Positions 11,524 to 19,894 are shown, numbered from the stretch's first letter. The stretch: 64,000 bases of DNA from Symploca sp. SIO3C6 (GCA_010692425.1 JAAHHJ010000024.1:1-64000), one strand, 5' to 3'. Numbers and translations are program-made. Notes: generated from the letters alone by a model not told the origin.

Positions 11524-13032
11524 TTAAGGGGAGTTAGACTTAAATAGAGGGTTAATGAGTTGCGATCGTTGTGCTCGCTTAGAGGATTTTTGTTCTGGGG
11601 ATGTTTGCTGCTCAGGAGTAGACTCTGTTGGGGAAGATTTTTGTTCAAATAAAGGATTAATGGTGGACGATTGCTCAGAGGATTTTTGTTCTGGAGATTT
11701 CTGCCGCTGATGGGCAGACTCTGTGGGAGAAGACTTAGATTTAAAGATAGGGTTAACAGTTTGCGAGTCCTTATTTGGTTCCGATGCTGCCACTTCTTCC
11801 TCTTGAGGCTCCTGTGGAGATATTTGGTTTTCAAATAAAGGGTTTAGTGGTTGCGATTGCACCAAACGTGATTTGGATGGTAATTTAGTTGATTCCGGAT
11901 ATCTTGGAATTACCTCGACAGGATTATCTTGGTTTTCAGGAGGCGATTGATTAGATTGATCCTCAATAGGCTCGGGCTTAGGAGGATGTACAATAGACTT
12001 CTTACCCAAGTCTTTTCCCAATGCTATTGGCGTTAATTGTTGTCTATTGTTCCCCCTTTCTTGTTCCCTATTTCCAACTTTTTTACCAAGTCTAATCTTT
12101 ACCCAATCCTCTGCTTGCCAAACAACGTTGCTTCCAGTTGAGCCCACCGCCTCATCCGATAAAGATAAAATGTGAGCTGTCAAACTGATGCGACGCTTCA
12201 CAGAAGTTGAAACCAGAAATATGCTGCCGTTAATTAAGGTATCTTCTGGGAGCTGTTCGATGTGAAGTCGAATCTCGTTGCCACCTGGAGTAAGATGGCG
12301 CGGGTAAAATTCTAATCCCGAGATATTGGCAGAAATTTTACAAGCTACTGGCACCACAATCCGTAGCAATAAATCATGTTCTCTGCCGTGAGCTAGTTGC
12401 CCCAGATAAAGTGAATTAGGATATTTCCATTCGCCCTCCTCTTCTGGTATGCCCATAACTAATCCTCGCACTTCGACATGATTAAACTGCGATTTTGCTG
12501 CTGATTTCAGCAGTATTGCACATTTATCTTCAGGGTTAATTGTTACCTCCTCTCCTGTAACTTCAATTCTTAGATTGCGCAGCTTTACTTGCTCCGACTC
12601 AATTGAAATTACAGGTCCAGTTAGAGCCCAAATAGTTGCGCCCTGACCATCTAAACTTAGAGGATGATTAATGATAATCGGACCTTGGTATTCGCCGCCA
12701 GCAGGCCACAATTGCAGCGTGGCTCCATCTTCTAAGGAATTGATCTGTTGTTGAAGTGTTACCGGCTCTGGTTGAAGAGATTTCTCCTTAACAGGAAATG
12801 CTCTAGGCTCAAGGGCAGAGGCAGAAGGTTTTTTTATACCCCATTGCCCTCTGTCTTCCTTCACTTCCAAGTCTTCAGCAGTCTTTGGTTGAGAATCCTC
12901 CAATTGAGTAGCCTCTGTTGGCAGTTGCTGAGATGGTTCGATAGTTGTCAATTCTTGAAGATTATCAGGCTCTGAATGATCGAGCAGAAAACCCTTAATA
13001 CTCTCAATGATTCTGTTGATAAAATTAAACAT
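11524..13032 (-). CDS. beta-helix-like protein with NPLF/SP repeat tail, coupled to the kinase gene
   Basis: A 502-residue protein whose ATG (MFNFINRI) overlaps the kinase stop by 8 bases (ATGTTTAA), a classic translational-coupling arrangement. An upstream TTG at 13053 is less likely. Residues about 85-200 look like a right-handed parallel beta-helix (LQLWPAGGEYQGPIIINHPLSLDG, then VKLRNLRIEV), as in pectate-lyase-like or NosD folds. Residues 200-310 form a second beta-rich domain. The last 150 residues are a disordered Ser/Pro/Glu/Gln tail with four copies of NP(L/I)F followed by xxSP. Residues 67-79 (KKPSASALEPRAF) come from a dispersed repeat. No signal peptide is visible. The exact function is unknown; a substrate or scaffold for the adjacent kinase is inferred from context. 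Confidence 0.75.
   Translation of the reverse strand: MFNFINRIIESIKGFLLDHSEPDNLQELTTIEPSQQLPTEATQLEDSQPKTAEDLEVKEDRGQWGIKKPSASALEPRAFPVKEKSLQPEPVTLQQQINSLEDGATLQLWPAGGEYQGPIIINHPLSLDGQGATIWALTGPVISIESEQVKLRNLRIEVTGEEVTINPEDKCAILLKSAAKSQFNHVEVRGLVMGIPEEEGEWKYPNSLYLGQLAHGREHDLLLRIVVPVACKISANISGLEFYPRHLTPGGNEIRLHIEQLPEDTLINGSIFLVSTSVKRRISLTAHILSLSDEAVGSTGSNVVWQAEDWVKIRLGKKVGNREQERGNNRQQLTPIALGKDLGKKSIVHPPKPEPIEDQSNQSPPENQDNPVEVIPRYPESTKLPSKSRLVQSQPLNPLFENQISPQEPQEEEVAASEPNKDSQTVNPIFKSKSSPTESAHQRQKSPEQKSSEQSSTINPLFEQKSSPTESTPEQQTSPEQKSSKRAQRSQLINPLFKSNSP
12796..12834 (-). repeat. dispersed repeat segment inside the beta-helix gene
   Basis: On the coding strand an A-run followed by CCTTCTGCCTCTGCC and CTTGAGCCTAGAGC encodes KKPSASALEPRAF. 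The CHAT gene at 5163-5204 carries the same DNA start (AAAAAAACCTTCTGCCT) in the same reading frame. The gene is therefore a second host of this repeat type. Confidence 0.65.
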
Positions 13033-14446
13033 GGAGCATCTGAACCTCAACAATCCTACCGTGTGGCTCTTGGGAAAGCCTAAATTGTACTCTATCCTCT
13101 AATTGAACTGCGCTTTTTGGCGCGACTGGATTACCTTTGGGCGAAGTTAGAGAAGACAGATTTTGGTTAATTAATAGCCATTGTCCCTGATGAAATACGA
13201 AGTAAGCTTGAGGAGTTCGATCAGCTTCTTCACCTGGTCTAAGATTATCAAAAACATGCCATTTAAATAGAGAGAGATTGTGGTAAACAACTAACTGTCC
13301 ATCTAGCAACCACTGCCCTGGGCGACGTTGCGATCGCAATCTGAGAATTGGTATATTCCCCTTAGGTTTTGAGCCGCAAAAAGGACATTTCACATTAGTT
13401 GTGTCCTTTAAAATAAACCATTTACTAGGACAATAACTATTCCTACAGGGAAAAAGCAAATCCCAAGTTTTAAGCAATCCCCGCTCCCATTCAATGGCTG
13501 CAGGTCGCTCGTTTACTAAGTGTAAACCCTTGACAAATGACCTTTCAAGTAATTTACTCAAGTGTGAACCTAGGGCAGTGTAAGGTACATGTAAATTTTG
13601 AGGTCGATTAGAATGGTCAGTGGGGTTTTCAATAAAAAGTGCCTTAGAACCCATCTCTAGACGCTCCTGTTCCTCTGCTGAGGAGGCTGGATGAATCTTT
13701 GGTCCTTCTAGGGGATGCCGACCTAAGAGATACTGATAAATTAGAACAGCCAGAGCATGTTGATCAGTATTGGCAGAGGGACTCTTGCGCTTGGAGTCGT
13801 TTAGAGGTAGATGAATTGTTGAGAGAACTTCCGGCGCGATATATCCTCGTGTTCCCAACACATCTGGAGGAAACAAGTCGGGCACAACTAATGAGTCAAT
13901 ATCGATAACTACGCATTGCCCAGAGCTTGGATCAATTAAGATATTTTTATTAGATAAATCGGAATGTGCTAAACCTGCTTGGTGCATGCGTCTAACAGCC
14001 CGAGCTAGAAGAATACAAATTTTAAAATAATTAAGCCAAGTTCCAGCTTCTTCTGTGGGCAAGAGTTGGCGAAGTTTTGGTCTTACAAACCAAGTACTTT
14101 CCTTCTCCTTACCTGCCCACGAACCTGTGGTAAAGAAGTAGTTTTCTGGATAAGTAGGTGCGATAATACCTAAGTGGGGTTGAACGACAATGCCTGTCGG
14201 CCAGCAAAACAGCTTTTTGAAATAATCACCAGTTTTCGGATCAAGAGTGGGATTAAACCTACCCAAAATTGCTTCTAATCGTGCCATCCGATTTAGATCT
14301 GAACCAGCACTGTGATCTTTATAAAAACAGACTACAGCTGATTTGTCAGCAGTAAAATAAACCTGTTTCATCCCCCCTTCACCAATGAGCTCGGGAATAT
14401 ACTCAATAGTATTGCCATCAGCAAGGGTTGCTGTCACTGTACTCAT
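13025..14446 (-). CDS. Ser/Thr protein kinase-like protein of a TerY-type triad
   Basis: A 473-residue protein. The kinase fold spans about 15-330: Gly-rich loop IGEGGMKQVY (21-30), probable nucleotide Lys43, catalytic HSDLSNKN (161-168), DID in place of DFG (182-184) and APE (204-206). All key residues are present, so activity is expected. It continues with a treble-Cys-pair-like zinc ribbon (C334-x4-C339 and C354-x2-C357) and a beta-rich end of about 110 residues that resembles an FHA-type domain. The ATG overlaps the phosphatase stop as ATGA, with GAGAGG upstream as ribosome site. Kinase, PP2C and vWA TerY together form the known TerY-associated phosphorylation triad; the target is unknown. 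Confidence 0.85.
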   Translation of the reverse strand: MSTVTATLADGNTIEYIPELIGEGGMKQVYFTADKSAVVCFYKDHSAGSDLNRMARLEAILGRFNPTLDPKTGDYFKKLFCWPTGIVVQPHLGIIAPTYPENYFFTTGSWAGKEKESTWFVRPKLRQLLPTEEAGTWLNYFKICILLARAVRRMHQAGLAHSDLSNKNILIDPSSGQCVVIDIDSLVVPDLFPPDVLGTRGYIAPEVLSTIHLPLNDSKRKSPSANTDQHALAVLIYQYLLGRHPLEGPKIHPASSAEEQERLEMGSKALFIENPTDHSNRPQNLHVPYTALGSHLSKLLERSFVKGLHLVNERPAAIEWERGLLKTWDLLFPCRNSYCPSKWFILKDTTNVKCPFCGSKPKGNIPILRLRSQRRPGQWLLDGQLVVYHNLSLFKWHVFDNLRPGEEADRTPQAYFVFHQGQWLLINQNLSSLTSPKGNPVAPKSAVQLEDRVQFRLSQEPHGRIVEVQMLHV

Positions 14447-15963
14447 TTGATAACCTCTCGATAAAGGATAGTCAAGGTGCGGTCATCAAATGAGGCTCGC
14501 CGATAGTAGGAATCAAGCCAAATGCGCAACTTTTCTTCTGGGGATTGGTTTTTGCCCTGCTTCCACATTGTCTCCCCATTAGAGCCAGCCCACAACAGAG
14601 TGTGATTAGCGATAACCTTTGACAGAGAAACATCAAGCTCCTTGGCATAGCCAGCAACTGAGCGAATGCATACAGTTTTTGCCTCATCTGTGGCTTGAGC
14701 AGCCATGATCCGCTTTTCCGTTGAGATGAACTTGTCTTTGGCTTCTTCTACCCCAGCGATACTTCCCAAATTTGTCTGACGCAGCTGATTAGCAATATCT
14801 TCATCATCGGCTTGAGGAGTCTCAATTACCTGATTAAGGAGCAAATCGCCATAAAGTTCTAACATACGAGGATTGTAGGGGAAGTAGTCCTCAGCTACTC
14901 CATCAGTCATTACCATTAAAGCCTTGATCGGACTGAAAAAGGGAAAGGTATTGCCGATGAGATTGTTTTTATCTAACTTATTTTTAGAGGTAAGAAACTC
15001 AGTTTGACCAGCAAATTCTCCCTTATCTGGTTGACATAATAACTGAAGTTCATAGTTGTGATCTACAGCAGCAATCATGCCATCTCCAACTTGACAGGTA
15101 AGTACAAAGCTATAGTCATTTTCTTTATAGCTGACGATGGTATGCACGGCGAGGAGTAAAGTTGCTGACAAATCCTTGATGTTGAGTCTTCTATTACCCA
15201 AAATTTGATAGTGATCAACACTATTGTTTCGTGCCATCGCCGCTTTCTCAACTGCTTCATAGGCAGCTTTCACGGCTTTATGTAACTTCTGTTGAACAAA
15301 CTCTAAATCTTGTTGAGCAAAAGCTCCCGTAGTTTGATCACGTTTGAAGGTATCAACAGACCATTCATCTCGCTCTTGTAACTGGTACTCTTTGAGTTCT
15401 TGAGCCAATAGTTGACATGCAGCTTCACAGGATACTTTAGCACCAACACGAGAGAACTTTTTCGAGCCGGCACCATCGGAAACAGCGATAATTGTCCAGG
15501 AACCGCTAACAACTAACTCGAACCAATCATCACAGTTAGTTCCTTCGTGTTTATGTCCTTTCCCTCGCACTCTTGCACCGATAAGCTTTAGGTTCCCTGG
15601 CGGGTTTTCATGTTTAGAATCAAACTCATCATGTTTATCTGGTTTCTCTGGCACTGGCAGATATTTCCACACCGCAGTAATCACTGAAGGAGTATTATTT
15701 TGGGGATCCTGTTGAGGCTCACTCTCAGGATGGGCATTCGGTAAAGGGGAAGCCTCAGAAGACTTTTTCAGCAAGACTTCGCTTAATTCCTGGCGTAATT
15801 TACTTTGCAATTGATCTGTTTTAGTCGAGTCAAGGGCTGCTGTGAACTTATGCAGTAAGTCTGTGAATTTATTGTCTGTAGACTCTTGCTCTTGTTTGCT
15901 ATTGAGCCCAAGTTTCCAAATAATGGCTTTAACCAATTGTTTTATTTCTATTTCCGACCACAT
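14443..15963 (-). CDS. PP2C-family protein phosphatase of the TerY-type triad
   Basis: The chosen start is the ATG at 15963 (506 residues), preceded by AGGAGA at a suitable distance; a GTG one codon upstream or a TTG at 16014 are alternatives. An N-terminal helical region (about 1-130) precedes the PP2C domain. Metal-binding motifs are visible as VSDGAGS, the LSATLLLAVH segment, VGDGMIAAVD and MTDGVAEDYFP, so a Mn/Mg-dependent Ser/Thr phosphatase is expected. GTNCDDWFEL is the short form of the N-terminal metal site typical of PP2C_2-type proteins. It is translationally coupled to the kinase and probably opposes it. Confidence 0.88.
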   Translation of the reverse strand: MWSEIEIKQLVKAIIWKLGLNSKQEQESTDNKFTDLLHKFTAALDSTKTDQLQSKLRQELSEVLLKKSSEASPLPNAHPESEPQQDPQNNTPSVITAVWKYLPVPEKPDKHDEFDSKHENPPGNLKLIGARVRGKGHKHEGTNCDDWFELVVSGSWTIIAVSDGAGSKKFSRVGAKVSCEAACQLLAQELKEYQLQERDEWSVDTFKRDQTTGAFAQQDLEFVQQKLHKAVKAAYEAVEKAAMARNNSVDHYQILGNRRLNIKDLSATLLLAVHTIVSYKENDYSFVLTCQVGDGMIAAVDHNYELQLLCQPDKGEFAGQTEFLTSKNKLDKNNLIGNTFPFFSPIKALMVMTDGVAEDYFPYNPRMLELYGDLLLNQVIETPQADDEDIANQLRQTNLGSIAGVEEAKDKFISTEKRIMAAQATDEAKTVCIRSVAGYAKELDVSLSKVIANHTLLWAGSNGETMWKQGKNQSPEEKLRIWLDSYYRRASFDDRTLTILYREVIK

Positions 15964-16092
15964 CACTGCTGAATCTCCTGAGGCTAATGGTTTCTTCAAC
16001 CAACGCTTTAACAAACAGCACCGCTAATATCAAATATAAAAAAGCAAGCCACAAATAGTTTTATGTTAAGTAATCAGTGACAGAATAAACTT

Positions 16093-16129
16093 TCTTACTT
16101 ATTACTTATTACTTATTACTTATTACTTA
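16093..16129. repeat. 7-bp tandem repeat (ACTTATT)n
   Basis: About five copies of the heptamer TTACTTA lie in the 171-base gap between the vWA and phosphatase genes. This is a short tandemly repeated repetitive (STRR) sequence of the type known from filamentous cyanobacteria; the same unit recurs at 18853-18900. Confidence 0.9.
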
Positions 16130-16185
16130 AAAAATATTTGTAGCCAACATTTATGTAATCGATATCAGAGTGTAAAAGAGTAGCC

Positions 16186-16824
16186 CTAGGGTACAATTTG
16201 AATCTGTGGTGGTGGTGGTGGTAAATTAACTGGCTGATCATCTGCCATTACCTGAGATACACTCTGAGATGTCTGCTTAATTGACTGCGTTACCCACTTA
16301 AAGAATGCCTTGAGAGTATCCGGCTGAAGATTATCTAGTTTGACAACAATTTCAGTAATGCGCTTGAGTAGATATTCATCAGCATTGGCACCAGCTGCAC
16401 AAGCAATAATATTGGCTGGTTTCTTCTGTTTGAGTTCATCTGCCGCCCTCTCCCAACTGTCAGTGGGCATGCCATCAGTCATCAGGAATACTAAAGGCTT
16501 CCAATCTCCCTTTTGGGTATCGCTAGCTTTATTTACATCTTCATCAAAGCACTTGCTTAAAAGTTTTAGGGCTTCACCTAGAGAAGTAGCTCCACCGGCT
16601 ACTAAGTTTGGTTCTTGGAATACTAAGAGCTCGGTGAGTGGACAAACTTGTCGGGCAGTGCTTTCAAATGCGATTACTGACAGGTAAGCTGTTTCTATAG
16701 CATAAGGTTCATTCTTAAGATCTGCTACTAGCGCCTTGACTCCTAAGCGTACTGCCTGGATAGGATCACCAGACATAGAACCAGAACAATCTAGTACTAA
16801 ATAGACAGGTAAACGACGTGACAT
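16186..16824 (-). CDS. TerY-like von Willebrand factor A (vWA) protein
   Basis: A 212-residue single vWA domain with an intact MIDAS metal site: DCSGS at residues 12-16, Thr80 in GGATSLGEAL, and Asp117 in MTDGMPTD. This matches TerY, the vWA component of tellurite-resistance-type stress loci. The last 15 residues are proline-rich (PPPPPQIQIVP), a possible docking tail. The ATG is preceded by AAGGAG at 7 bases. No signal peptide is seen, so it should be cytosolic. It lies 11 bases downstream of the CAP gene, so the two are very probably co-transcribed. Confidence 0.88.
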   Translation of the reverse strand: MSRRLPVYLVLDCSGSMSGDPIQAVRLGVKALVADLKNEPYAIETAYLSVIAFESTARQVCPLTELLVFQEPNLVAGGATSLGEALKLLSKCFDEDVNKASDTQKGDWKPLVFLMTDGMPTDSWERAADELKQKKPANIIACAAGANADEYLLKRITEIVVKLDNLQPDTLKAFFKWVTQSIKQTSQSVSQVMADDQPVNLPPPPPQIQIVP

Positions 16825-16835
16825 TTGTCAACTCC

Positions 16836-17360
16836 TTAACAGAAATTTTGAGTTATGTAAACTTCGTTTCGCTCTAAAGCAACTGCCACACCTATACCTT
16901 CTTGGTCATAAGTTGCCGTTAGTATATTTTTACGGTGTCCAGGACTAGACATCCAACCATTAACAGCAAGATTGGCTAGTTTATCTTGAGTCATCCAATC
17001 ATAGTAAGGGACGCCATTATAGTAGGTTACACAACTATATAGATGACTCTTAAATATATTTTCGCTTATTCCTTTAGTATAGTAAGCTCCATAATCTTTA
17101 CGACAGTGATAATTAGCTGCTATTCCTCTATCTGCTGGAGTTTTACCTTCTGGAGTGTGATGAGCGAAAAAATTCCTCTTTGCCATATCCTTACTATGTC
17201 CTCTGGCAATATCTGCCAACTGGGAATCAAACTGCAAAGAATTTAGCCGATATTTTCTTCTTTCATAAGAAATTAATTGATGAATTTTCTTTTCTAGACC
17301 AGAAATAGAGAGTTGTGCTGGCTGGGAGTTTCGCCTTTGTTGTCTTAAGCTGTTATGCAT
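16836..17360 (-). CDS. CAP-domain (SCP/PR-1-like) protein without a visible signal peptide
   Basis: A 174-residue protein dominated by one CAP domain: INxxR-like start, HSKDMAKRNFFAHHTPEGKTPADR with the tandem His, GISENIF, and WMSSPGHRKNIL with the second conserved His. Several Cys residues (CRKDYG, SCVTYY and the terminal FC) could form disulphides. CAP proteins are normally exported, but the N-terminus here (MHNSLRQQRRNS) is polar and basic with no hydrophobic core. Either the start is misjudged or this one is cytosolic. It is packed tightly upstream of the TerY-like gene, which ties it to the phosphosignalling island. Confidence 0.85.
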   Translation of the reverse strand: MHNSLRQQRRNSQPAQLSISGLEKKIHQLISYERRKYRLNSLQFDSQLADIARGHSKDMAKRNFFAHHTPEGKTPADRGIAANYHCRKDYGAYYTKGISENIFKSHLYSCVTYYNGVPYYDWMTQDKLANLAVNGWMSSPGHRKNILTATYDQEGIGVAVALERNEVYITQNFC

Positions 17361-17472
17361 TTAACTTGTAGATTCGTTTGTTATCTGTTTATGACTGAAA
17401 CTCTTGTTACTTCTGCCTTCTTCCTCCTACTTTTTCCCTTGCTATTATGCATTTTTAAGGCACGACAGCTTA

Positions 17473-18543
17473 CTATCCATTATCTTTGGGTAAAATGACC
17501 GTTTGTCGAATTCTTTGACCATAAACTTCTAATTCAAACCATTGGCAACTGGCAGGCAGAGAAAGAGATACCTTGGCAGGAAGTCCATCAGTATATTGCT
17601 TGATTCTATTGCCAGCAGAATCATAGATAGTTCCTGTTGGTGCTACTATTTGGTTTTCATCAACCACCTCCGCAAATATCTCCACTAAAGCCTTCATATC
17701 CTGAGCAATTTTATAGTCCCAAATATCAATACCAGTTCCTGTGGAAAAATCATCAAGTTCTTCCAATTGATGCTGATCAATGTCACTGCCTACTCCTACC
17801 AAAACGAACTTAACAAAATTACGCTTATTGTCGGCAATCTGCTTAGCTAGCTGAATTGTATATTTCTTAACTGCATCTAAATCATCCAGTTTGCCATCAG
17901 TTATAAAAACGTACATCCCCCGCTTGGCATCTAGAAAACGCTCGGCAAAATATTTAACTGCAGGGGTAAGGACTGTACCTGAACCAAAAGCAATGCTTTT
18001 TGGTCCTTTAACCTCAAGTTGACGACACTGTTGTTCTGTAAAATCACCTAAAATTTCAATGGCACTACCATCACCTCCTGCCCAATAAATTACCGTTGTT
18101 CCACCATCAGCATCGAGATTACTTGCTAGGTAAGCGATAAACTCTTGAGCCAGAGGTTGAACCAAATTTTCACTAGGCTTTAAATGACCCTTACTAATAG
18201 CATCTTCATAAGCCGATTTATGAATTATTTCAATGGTTTTACCATCTTGAACATCACGTTCAATCCATCCTTGCTTTTGGTACTTAACTTGCAGTTGTTC
18301 CGGAATTTTACCTAGAAGATGTCGTCCATACCAACCTCTCATCGAGGCACTGGCATCCAAAGCCACACCTGTTTGCCAACCTTCAGCTTCAGCTCCTTGA
18401 GGTTCCATCAAAATAGTAAACATAACCTGGATTTCATTACCCAGGTTGCGGATATTTACTTCTCCAAGTTCTTTGGCAACAATGGTACTAGGTAATTGGT
18501 GACTGCGCTGTTCGTTTACTGAATAAGAGCTTTGACCATTCAT
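17473..18543 (-). CDS. vWA-domain protein, paralogue of the gene at 18944-19894
   Basis: A 356-residue vWA protein. The MIDAS first strand is VALDASASM (Asp63) and the later loop is FITDGKLDD (215-217). A beta-rich C-terminal extension (about 295-356) carries GTIYDSAGNRI, YTDGLPA and FELEVYG. The same extension occurs in the upstream paralogue (GRILNQDGKN, YPDGVPA, FSLEFPG), so the two share a two-domain architecture distinct from the TerY-like gene. No signal peptide is seen. A scaffold or adaptor role within the kinase/phosphatase island is inferred from position. Confidence 0.82.
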   Translation of the reverse strand: MNGQSSYSVNEQRSHQLPSTIVAKELGEVNIRNLGNEIQVMFTILMEPQGAEAEGWQTGVALDASASMRGWYGRHLLGKIPEQLQVKYQKQGWIERDVQDGKTIEIIHKSAYEDAISKGHLKPSENLVQPLAQEFIAYLASNLDADGGTTVIYWAGGDGSAIEILGDFTEQQCRQLEVKGPKSIAFGSGTVLTPAVKYFAERFLDAKRGMYVFITDGKLDDLDAVKKYTIQLAKQIADNKRNFVKFVLVGVGSDIDQHQLEELDDFSTGTGIDIWDYKIAQDMKALVEIFAEVVDENQIVAPTGTIYDSAGNRIKQYTDGLPAKVSLSLPASCQWFELEVYGQRIRQTVILPKDNG

Positions 18544-18723
18544 AATTCTATGTTTACCTTCACTGTTATTTAAGCCCTTTACAACATCCCTTATCTCCTA
18601 AATTGAAGTTCCGAAAACAGAACCAGCACTTCCTAATAGGAAACTTCTTAAGCAAGTAATAAGGGAGTTGGGAGTTGGAAATTTAAGTGATAAAAAAATG
18701 TACCTCATCAATTCGATAAATAC

Positions 18724-18848
18724 TATAGCAATTCTATTTCTAGCGTGAGATACACTTCATTTTCTTACCTGTTCGCTGTTCGTTGTTCTCTGTTAAGAAT
18801 TTCCTAAAGCCCAAGGAGTGTACCCCATCAAGCAAGAGAAACGCTATA
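18724..18848. mobile_element. MITE-like element with TATAGC ends
   Basis: The 125-base segment begins TATAGCAATTCTATTTCT and ends with the reverse complement of TATAGCGTTTCTCTTGCT; both arms continue to a shared TACACT about 28 bases in. It has no coding capacity. The termini match those of the elements at 53905, 55635 and 57675. Confidence 0.55.
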
Positions 18849-18852
18849 TACC

Positions 18853-18900
18853 CACTTATTACTTATTACTTATTACTTATTACTTATTACTTATTACTTA
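18853..18900. repeat. 7-bp tandem repeat (ACTTATT)n
   Basis: About seven exact copies of ACTTATT abut the right end of the preceding MITE-like element. The unit is identical to that of the array at 16093-16129. Confidence 0.92.
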
Positions 18901-18943
18901 CCCTGATAGTGACTCTCTGCTCAGAAGTTCCCTCTTAAAGTTG

Positions 18944-19894
18944 TTAGAGAACTTCAGAAATGTCTTGGGTGACGCTTCCTCCTGGAAATTCTAAACTGAA
19001 TGCAGTTGAACCAACCGGCAGAGTAAATCTTAGTAACGCGGGAACACCATCAGGATATTCCTGACAATTTTTACCGTCTTGATTTAAGATACGACCAGAG
19101 CCAATAACAATCATGTCTTCAGAAACGAACTCTTTGAATACCTGTTCTAGTTTTTGCATATCGCTAGCTAACTGGTGGTCCCAAAGATCGATATCTTTTC
19201 CTGAACTATCCTTGATACCACTACCTTCAAACATGTCATCAAGTTCATCCATTTGACCTTCATCTACTTCCTCACCAACACCGATAAGCAAAAACTTAAT
19301 AAAAGGTTTGTGTTCTTGGGAAATTTCTTGAGCATACTGTAAACAGTATTGCTTGACATCTGTTAAGTCTTCGATAATTCCATCGGTTACAAACAAACAA
19401 ATAGCTCCTGGTTCTTTTACTCCTTTGGCTGGAGCATCTTTGAATTTGTCAACGAAGTACTTTAAAGGAGGCAACAATTTAGTTCCTCTTCCCCAGGGAA
19501 GTTTTTTGGGGCCTGAGATTACCAAGTTTTGTATATCTTGTTCTTCAAATTCTCCTAATGGTTCTATTTTTGAACCATCCGGACTGCAAGCCCAATAAAT
19601 TAAATCTACCTTGCCATTAGAAGAGAAATTCGCCAAATAACTGACCATGGTGCGAGCCACAGGTTCAACGACGTTAGGAGTGCTGGCTGCGGCTGCCTGG
19701 GCAAAAACTGAACCCACAATACCACTTACTCCATACATCTTTTTCATGGATGCAGAACCATCAAGTGCTAGACCAATTTTTGCACCTTCAAGATCAGGAA
19801 CAGCGAGAATAGTGGCAACAACGTGAAGCTCACCACTATTTTGTTTGTAAACATTGACTTCGCCGAATGGTTCAACTACCTTAGCTAGCTGCAT
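18944..19894 (-). CDS. vWA-domain protein at the head of the kinase/phosphatase island
   Basis: The ATG at 19894 (316 residues, MQLAKVVEPFGEVNV) is preferred over an upstream ATG at 19939 because GGAGAGG lies 8 bases before it. The vWA MIDAS site is LALDGSASM (Asp45) with LFVTDGIIEDL further on. The C-terminal beta-rich extension with YPDGVPA and FSLEFPG is shared with the next gene. It is the first gene of a minus-strand series ending at 11524, although repeats interrupt some gaps. No export signal is seen. The specific role is unknown. Confidence 0.82.
   Translation of the reverse strand: MQLAKVVEPFGEVNVYKQNSGELHVVATILAVPDLEGAKIGLALDGSASMKKMYGVSGIVGSVFAQAAAASTPNVVEPVARTMVSYLANFSSNGKVDLIYWACSPDGSKIEPLGEFEEQDIQNLVISGPKKLPWGRGTKLLPPLKYFVDKFKDAPAKGVKEPGAICLFVTDGIIEDLTDVKQYCLQYAQEISQEHKPFIKFLLIGVGEEVDEGQMDELDDMFEGSGIKDSSGKDIDLWDHQLASDMQKLEQVFKEFVSEDMIVIGSGRILNQDGKNCQEYPDGVPALLRFTLPVGSTAFSLEFPGGSVTQDISEVL

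Follow-up and report, generated by a model that had tools for sequence, protein, structure and literature searches.

This analysis concerns seven genes of a 64,000-nucleotide stretch of DNA from Symploca sp. SIO3C6 (GCA_010692425.1, JAAHHJ010000024.1:1-64000; the whole stretch is referred to as the window and its genome as G000), in which a TerY-P phosphosignalling triad (TerY-like vWA protein, PP2C phosphatase and Ser/Thr kinase) is accompanied by two further vWA proteins (vWA6 and vWA7), a CAP-domain protein and a protein with a beta-helix/Ig-like core and a repetitive tail, here called BH. All seven are intact open reading frames (ORFs) that together form an island at positions 11524-19894, and every ORF was found on the minus strand where the first-pass annotation of the sequence had placed it. 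Following the minus strand, the features are:

18944-19894, minus strand: vWA7; ATG start at 19894; metal ion-dependent adhesion site (MIDAS) DGSAS/T/TDG intact; vWA inserted in a beta-sandwich, as predicted by homology to the vWA6 model.
17473-18543, minus strand: vWA6, a vWA7 paralogue (41% identical); MIDAS DASAS/T/TDG; modelled with AlphaFold.
16836-17360, minus strand: CAP-domain protein, YkwD-like; without signal peptide or transmembrane segment; optional component.
16186-16824, minus strand: TerY-like vWA protein; MIDAS DCSGS/T/TDG.
14443-16014, minus strand: PP2C phosphatase; metal-binding Asp motifs intact.
13025-14446, minus strand: Ser/Thr kinase of the TerY-P type; motifs GEGGMK, HSDLSNKN and DID; C-terminal zinc ribbon and conserved tail domain.
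13376-13447, minus strand: zinc ribbon of the kinase, C334-x4-C339 ... C354-x2-C357.
11524-13032, minus strand: BH, beta-helix/Ig adaptor-like protein with repetitive tail; ATG start at 13032; without signal peptide or transmembrane segment.
12157-12771, minus strand: BH core; short beta-helix at about residues 88-195, then an Ig/PapD-like sandwich at about residues 205-292.
11527-12087, minus strand: BH tail with four (I/V/L)NP(L/I)F repeats.

The PP2C, kinase and BH genes form an overlapping run, and the two overlaps noted at first pass, an ATGA between PP2C and kinase (14443-14446) and 8 bases between kinase and BH (13025-13032), were both recovered. The catalytic motifs of PP2C and kinase and the zinc ribbon of the latter are intact, as is the MIDAS of all three vWA proteins and not only that of TerY, for which it had been claimed. 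Comparison with the sister genome (G364, Symploca) indicated purifying selection on all seven genes (ratio of nonsynonymous to synonymous substitution rates 0.04-0.50), the highest ratios being those of CAP and BH. Hydropathy analysis of the seven products revealed no obvious transmembrane segment or signal peptide. Scans for sigma-70 promoters and terminators gave chance-level results and are uninformative on operon structure, and a search for a mobile-island signature found a GC content of 0.41 (0.43 for the window) and no clear element boundary. The immediate flanks encode a CHASE2 histidine kinase, a DUF928 protein and an asparagine synthase according to Pfam, and differ from the island flanks in genomes G231, G510 and G359. 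Heptanucleotide repeats, (GTAATAA)n, resembling cyanobacterial short tandem repeats are located at 16095-16129 (TerY/PP2C gap) and 18854-18900 (vWA6/vWA7 gap); the sister genome has none between TerY and PP2C.

Gene neighbourhoods were compared using a kinase-alignment scan of one genome per species, which yielded 519 related stretches, the best 80 of which were used. A PP2C and/or TerY gene adjoins these 80 kinases wherever flanking DNA sufficed. BH lies directly downstream of the kinase in the nine most similar loci, which belong to four phyla, and in none of the remaining 71. In the kinase tree a single clade of 14 (approximate likelihood ratio test 100) holds 13 BH carriers, the lone non-carrier being a long branch, and spans Cyanobacteriota, Acidobacteriota, Abditibacteriota and a Bacillota metagenome-assembled genome (MAG). 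Within the order to which the window's genome belongs, profiles of vWA6/7, BH and the kinase were run against one common set of 361 genomes. Of these, 8 have the kinase (once as a fragment), 10 a stand-alone BH and 12 strong matches to vWA6/7. Each of the eight genomes with the kinase also has BH and the vWA pair, usually contiguous with it (Fisher p 7e-15 and 7e-14, uncorrected for relatedness). Adjacency and co-occurrence thus support the extension of the triad into a larger module that had been proposed at first pass, with CAP as an optional member, and sequence comparison indicates that BH and the vWA pair are not accidental neighbours and are co-inherited with the triad.

Full seven-gene synteny was found in G231 (locus L039) and in the sister genome (L059/L167). 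The G116 island, although two-component genes split it within one contig, retains vWA7, vWA6, TerY, PP2C, kinase and BH, and G424 retains the same six genes as vWA7-vWA6-TerY and PP2C-kinase-BH on different contigs, while in G407 and G418 parts of the island are broken together. Because the core genes are kept after splitting and the parts decay together, the island appears to be a functional unit. A chance or historical adjacency of the triad and unrelated genes, for which the intergenic gaps of 112-401 bp near vWA6 and vWA7 and the heptanucleotide repeats speak in that they could hide separate promoters, is highly improbable in view of the complete co-occurrence (8/8), the retention after splitting, the constant gene order in differing contexts and the domain fusions described below.

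The triad itself is of a type already known, and its assignment at first pass was borne out by Pfam, motifs and adjacency, which identify it as bona fide TerY-P; its catalytic competence is evident from the sequence. TerY matches Pfam VWA (E=1e-12), with the MIDAS residues DCSGS at 12, T at about 80 and TDG at 116. PP2C matches PP2C_2 (PF13672, E=1.9e-40), carries SDGAG, VGDG, TDG and DDRT motifs and adjoins the kinase; a PDB sequence search with it gave no match. Its true start is probably GTG 15966 or ATG 15963, since the upstream extension is not conserved in the sister genome, and an N-terminal truncation was rejected, the comparison with the sister showing merely a shorter low-complexity linker. 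The kinase matches Pkinase (E=4e-12), has a C-x4-C/C-x2-C zinc ribbon at its C-terminus and is 45-97% identical to the kinases of the 80 other loci, nearly all of which have visible triads. The zinc ribbon is followed in all TerY-P kinases examined by a conserved domain of about 100 residues (window positions 13028-13375). Profile searches with 31 such tails matched it to no family in PDB or Pfam and gave no support for the FHA-like character suspected by eye. G000 also contains a distant second triad of TerY, PP2C and kinase (L056, G000:C225), located beside a 1722-residue Band_7 (SPFH)-vWA protein.

Since the same triad occurs in ter loci, the island could in principle serve a canonical Ter-type response to metal or oxidative stress, the extra proteins being lineage decorations. 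Some related loci do encode TerY_C, TerD or TerD-vWA proteins (L067, L042), and calcium-type P-type ATPase genes lie near three of the nine BH islands (L062, 13045-13771; L063, 5721-7757; L067, 2480-5503). However, neither G000 nor the sister genome has a TerD gene (PF02342), and the TerD of other cyanobacteria checked lies, where present, away from the island. The tellurite-type link suggested at first pass therefore did not hold for the window genome, where such an output is unlikely, and the co-inheritance of BH and the vWA pair with the triad argues that they are not mere decoration; overall we regard this explanation as unlikely.

The vWA6 and vWA7 proteins had been described as paralogues with a shared C-terminal domain. 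Their paralogy was upheld, whereas the supposed separate domain corresponds in the vWA6 model (AlphaFold, predicted local distance difference test, pLDDT, 82) to strands of a beta-sandwich, formed by N- and C-terminal strands on either side of the inserted vWA; the best PDB match of this model is inter-alpha-inhibitor heavy chain 1. By sequence, vWA6 has no Pfam match and vWA7 a sub-threshold match to vWA-TerF-like (E=0.004), and PDB sequence searches with both gave no match. In G193 vWA6 is fused via a hydrophobic segment to an OmpA domain (L160), and both Nostoc and a Pyrinomonadaceae MAG have genes for transmembrane (TM)-OmpA proteins next to vWA6; the vWA6-TM-OmpA fusion suggests an envelope-linked arm. 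At L175 a divergent vWA6/7-like pair was also observed, its operon further encoding a trypsin-like protease as well as Hsp70 and Hsp70-vWA proteins.

The CAP protein (Pfam PF00188, E=3.8e-16) retains the conserved His/Glu motifs GHSKDM, FAHHTP, SENI and GHRKNIL. It was found in four genomes of three genera (the window genome, its sister, G231 and G278), each time in the slot occupied elsewhere by TM-OmpA genes, and in G278 it is preceded by an OmpA N-terminal remnant. The four proteins, 65-86% identical, form a distinct subfamily not found elsewhere in 14 genomes checked, and by hydropathy they show no hydrophobic N-terminal segment, unlike the usual CAP proteins with their secretion signal. 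CAP is thus an optional but island-specific component.

BH has no Pfam match, and a PDB sequence search with it gave marginal matches only; residues 100-203 match a NosD-like NCBIfam. The AlphaFold model of the core (pLDDT 89.6) has a short beta-helix that leads into an Ig/PapD-like sandwich, its best PDB match being the PapD-like domain of HYDIN. The description of BH as a beta-helix protein thus applies to about 100 residues, the remaining conserved core being the sandwich. The repeat tail annotated at first pass is present, with the four repeats at residues 397, 427, 459 and 494 (11833-11844, 11743-11754, 11647-11658 and 11542-11553) reading NPLF, NPIF, NPLF and NPLF; the sister genome keeps 16 of 16 motif residues, though its tail is merely 76% identical. 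Together, 11 BH tails contain 29 copies of the pattern [N/S/P]x[L/I/V]F, whereas composition-preserving shuffles predict 2.4 (at most 9 in any of 2000), an excess that describes conservation and is no independent test because the pattern was defined after inspecting the tails and the tails are related. The motif is present in 10 of the 11 tails, usually near the C-terminus, the exception being a WD40 fusion.

Fusions join the BH core to a TerY-like vWA in L063, to TerD in L066 and L067 and to WD40 repeats in L064; in the Mokosh-like loci L162-L164 it forms the N-terminal part of MkoA-like helicases, next to which MkoB-like PLD proteins are encoded. In view of these partners it looks like a portable adaptor. 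In the order searched, BH cores outside the islands are mostly in ORFs of about 1400-1750 residues, and those examined are Mokosh-like. MkoA-like SF1 helicases with an N-terminal BH core were located in L162 (9376-16018), L163 (2267-9640), L164 (9590-16691) and L176 (300-7429); the two scanned lack the kinase domain that other MkoA models have at this place. They possibly represent an unreported Mokosh variant, which would be present in up to about 29 of the 361 genomes if all large BH-core ORFs are alike.

The Mokosh link makes an anti-phage or conflict system a serious rival, together with the accompaniment of CoCoNuTs by TerY-P triads, of which the OB-fold versions are stand-alone defences (PMC11090510), the patchy distribution (8/361 genomes of the order) and the gene following the Nostoc island, which encodes EAD1-trypsin, a domain pair typical of conflict systems. 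Two islands moreover lie near mad3-like (L066) or Iet-like (L065) genes. In such a system the triad would be the activation switch, BH the recognition component, and vWA6/7 with the envelope domains the effector arm, whose target might be the cell wall. Yet no recognised killing domain, such as a nuclease, TIR or pore, is encoded by the seven genes, the window flanks are not defence genes, and the PADLOC matches of the seven proteins are partial only and mostly to the kinase domain. We consider a defence role possible but not the probable answer.

The explanation that we favour, with modest confidence, is an extended TerY-P phosphosignalling module with a dedicated adaptor or substrate. Adjacency, fusion and co-inheritance suggest BH as the adaptor and likely substrate of the kinase and PP2C, and from the same evidence we infer that the tail motif is a putative docking site and that the vWA pair may link the module to the envelope. 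The beta-helix and Ig-like core of BH would recognise a target or effector, while its presumably disordered tail would present several short [N/S/P]x[L/I/V]F docking motifs. The phosphorylation state of this Ser/Thr-rich tail would be controlled by the kinase and PP2C, which would thereby time the engagement of BH with a metal-dependent vWA scaffold (TerY, vWA6, vWA7). As a TM helix connects vWA6 with a peptidoglycan-binding OmpA domain in related systems, the switch would probably report on or act at the cell envelope; in the window island the signal-less, island-specific CAP fills the OmpA slot. Phage defence and envelope stress are the leading candidates for the output, rather than tellurite resistance. 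More tentatively, the BH core may be a portable recognition or adaptor domain that connects TerY-P kinase/phosphatase, TerD and vWA inputs, as well as a Mokosh-like antiphage helicase, to one shared type of target, the island tail being a phospho-switchable multivalent ligand for the vWAs that links cytosolic phosphosignalling to peptidoglycan.

Several observations weigh against an extended module. Relatives of vWA6/7 occur without a triad in G193, G282, G298 and G561, and G278 keeps vWA7, vWA6 and CAP although the triad is gone and its BH core has been halved. About half of the islands are without CAP, BH-bearing kinase relatives are confined to about a dozen genera, and the copies of the tail motif share ancestry and are hence non-independent.

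The literature searched, which did not cover the 2012 Ter survey, contained no mention of the BH core family, its place behind one kinase clade, its fusions, the tail motif or the vWA-in-sandwich pair, so that their novelty is provisional; the adaptor-like BH protein is seemingly undescribed. TerY-P triads are widespread, as the number of related stretches in the species-level scan indicates, and a subclass with one dedicated, co-inherited downstream protein provides a concrete candidate substrate that makes the output of the switch testable. The occurrence of the BH core in Mokosh-like helicases and in fusion with TerD joins three poorly understood stress and defence families via one testable module.

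Among known systems, the TerY-P triad (Anantharaman, Iyer and Aravind 2012, as described in PMC11090510) has, like the island, adjacent genes for a TerY-like vWA whose MIDAS is intact, a PP2C and a Ser/Thr kinase bearing a zinc ribbon at its C-terminus; the island differs in adding BH, vWA6, vWA7 and CAP, and in residing in a genome without a TerD gene. Type II and III-A CoCoNuTs with TerY-P and duplicated vWA (PMC11090510) likewise have additional vWA genes in the operon of the triad, but the extra vWAs of the island are vWA-in-sandwich proteins and not short TerY copies, and no CnuB-, CnuC-, CnuH- or CnuE-type gene was annotated among the seven island and three flanking genes. The vWA-MoxR (VMAP/iSTAND) ternary systems (PMC7159879) are similarly vWA-centred and found in multicellular bacteria, some having TM and OmpA peptidoglycan-binding arms, whereas the same ten genes gave no AAA match that would indicate a MoxR AAA+ ATPase. 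With type I Mokosh (MkoA/MkoB) only the BH module is common, as the N-terminus of the MkoA-like helicases; the seven island proteins include no SF1 helicase or PLD nuclease, and the island kinase matches MkoA through the kinase domain only. NosD is a periplasmic protein of a copper pathway, and about 100 residues of BH match this right-handed beta-helix protein; BH differs in having no signal peptide and in continuing into an Ig-like domain and a motif-bearing tail.

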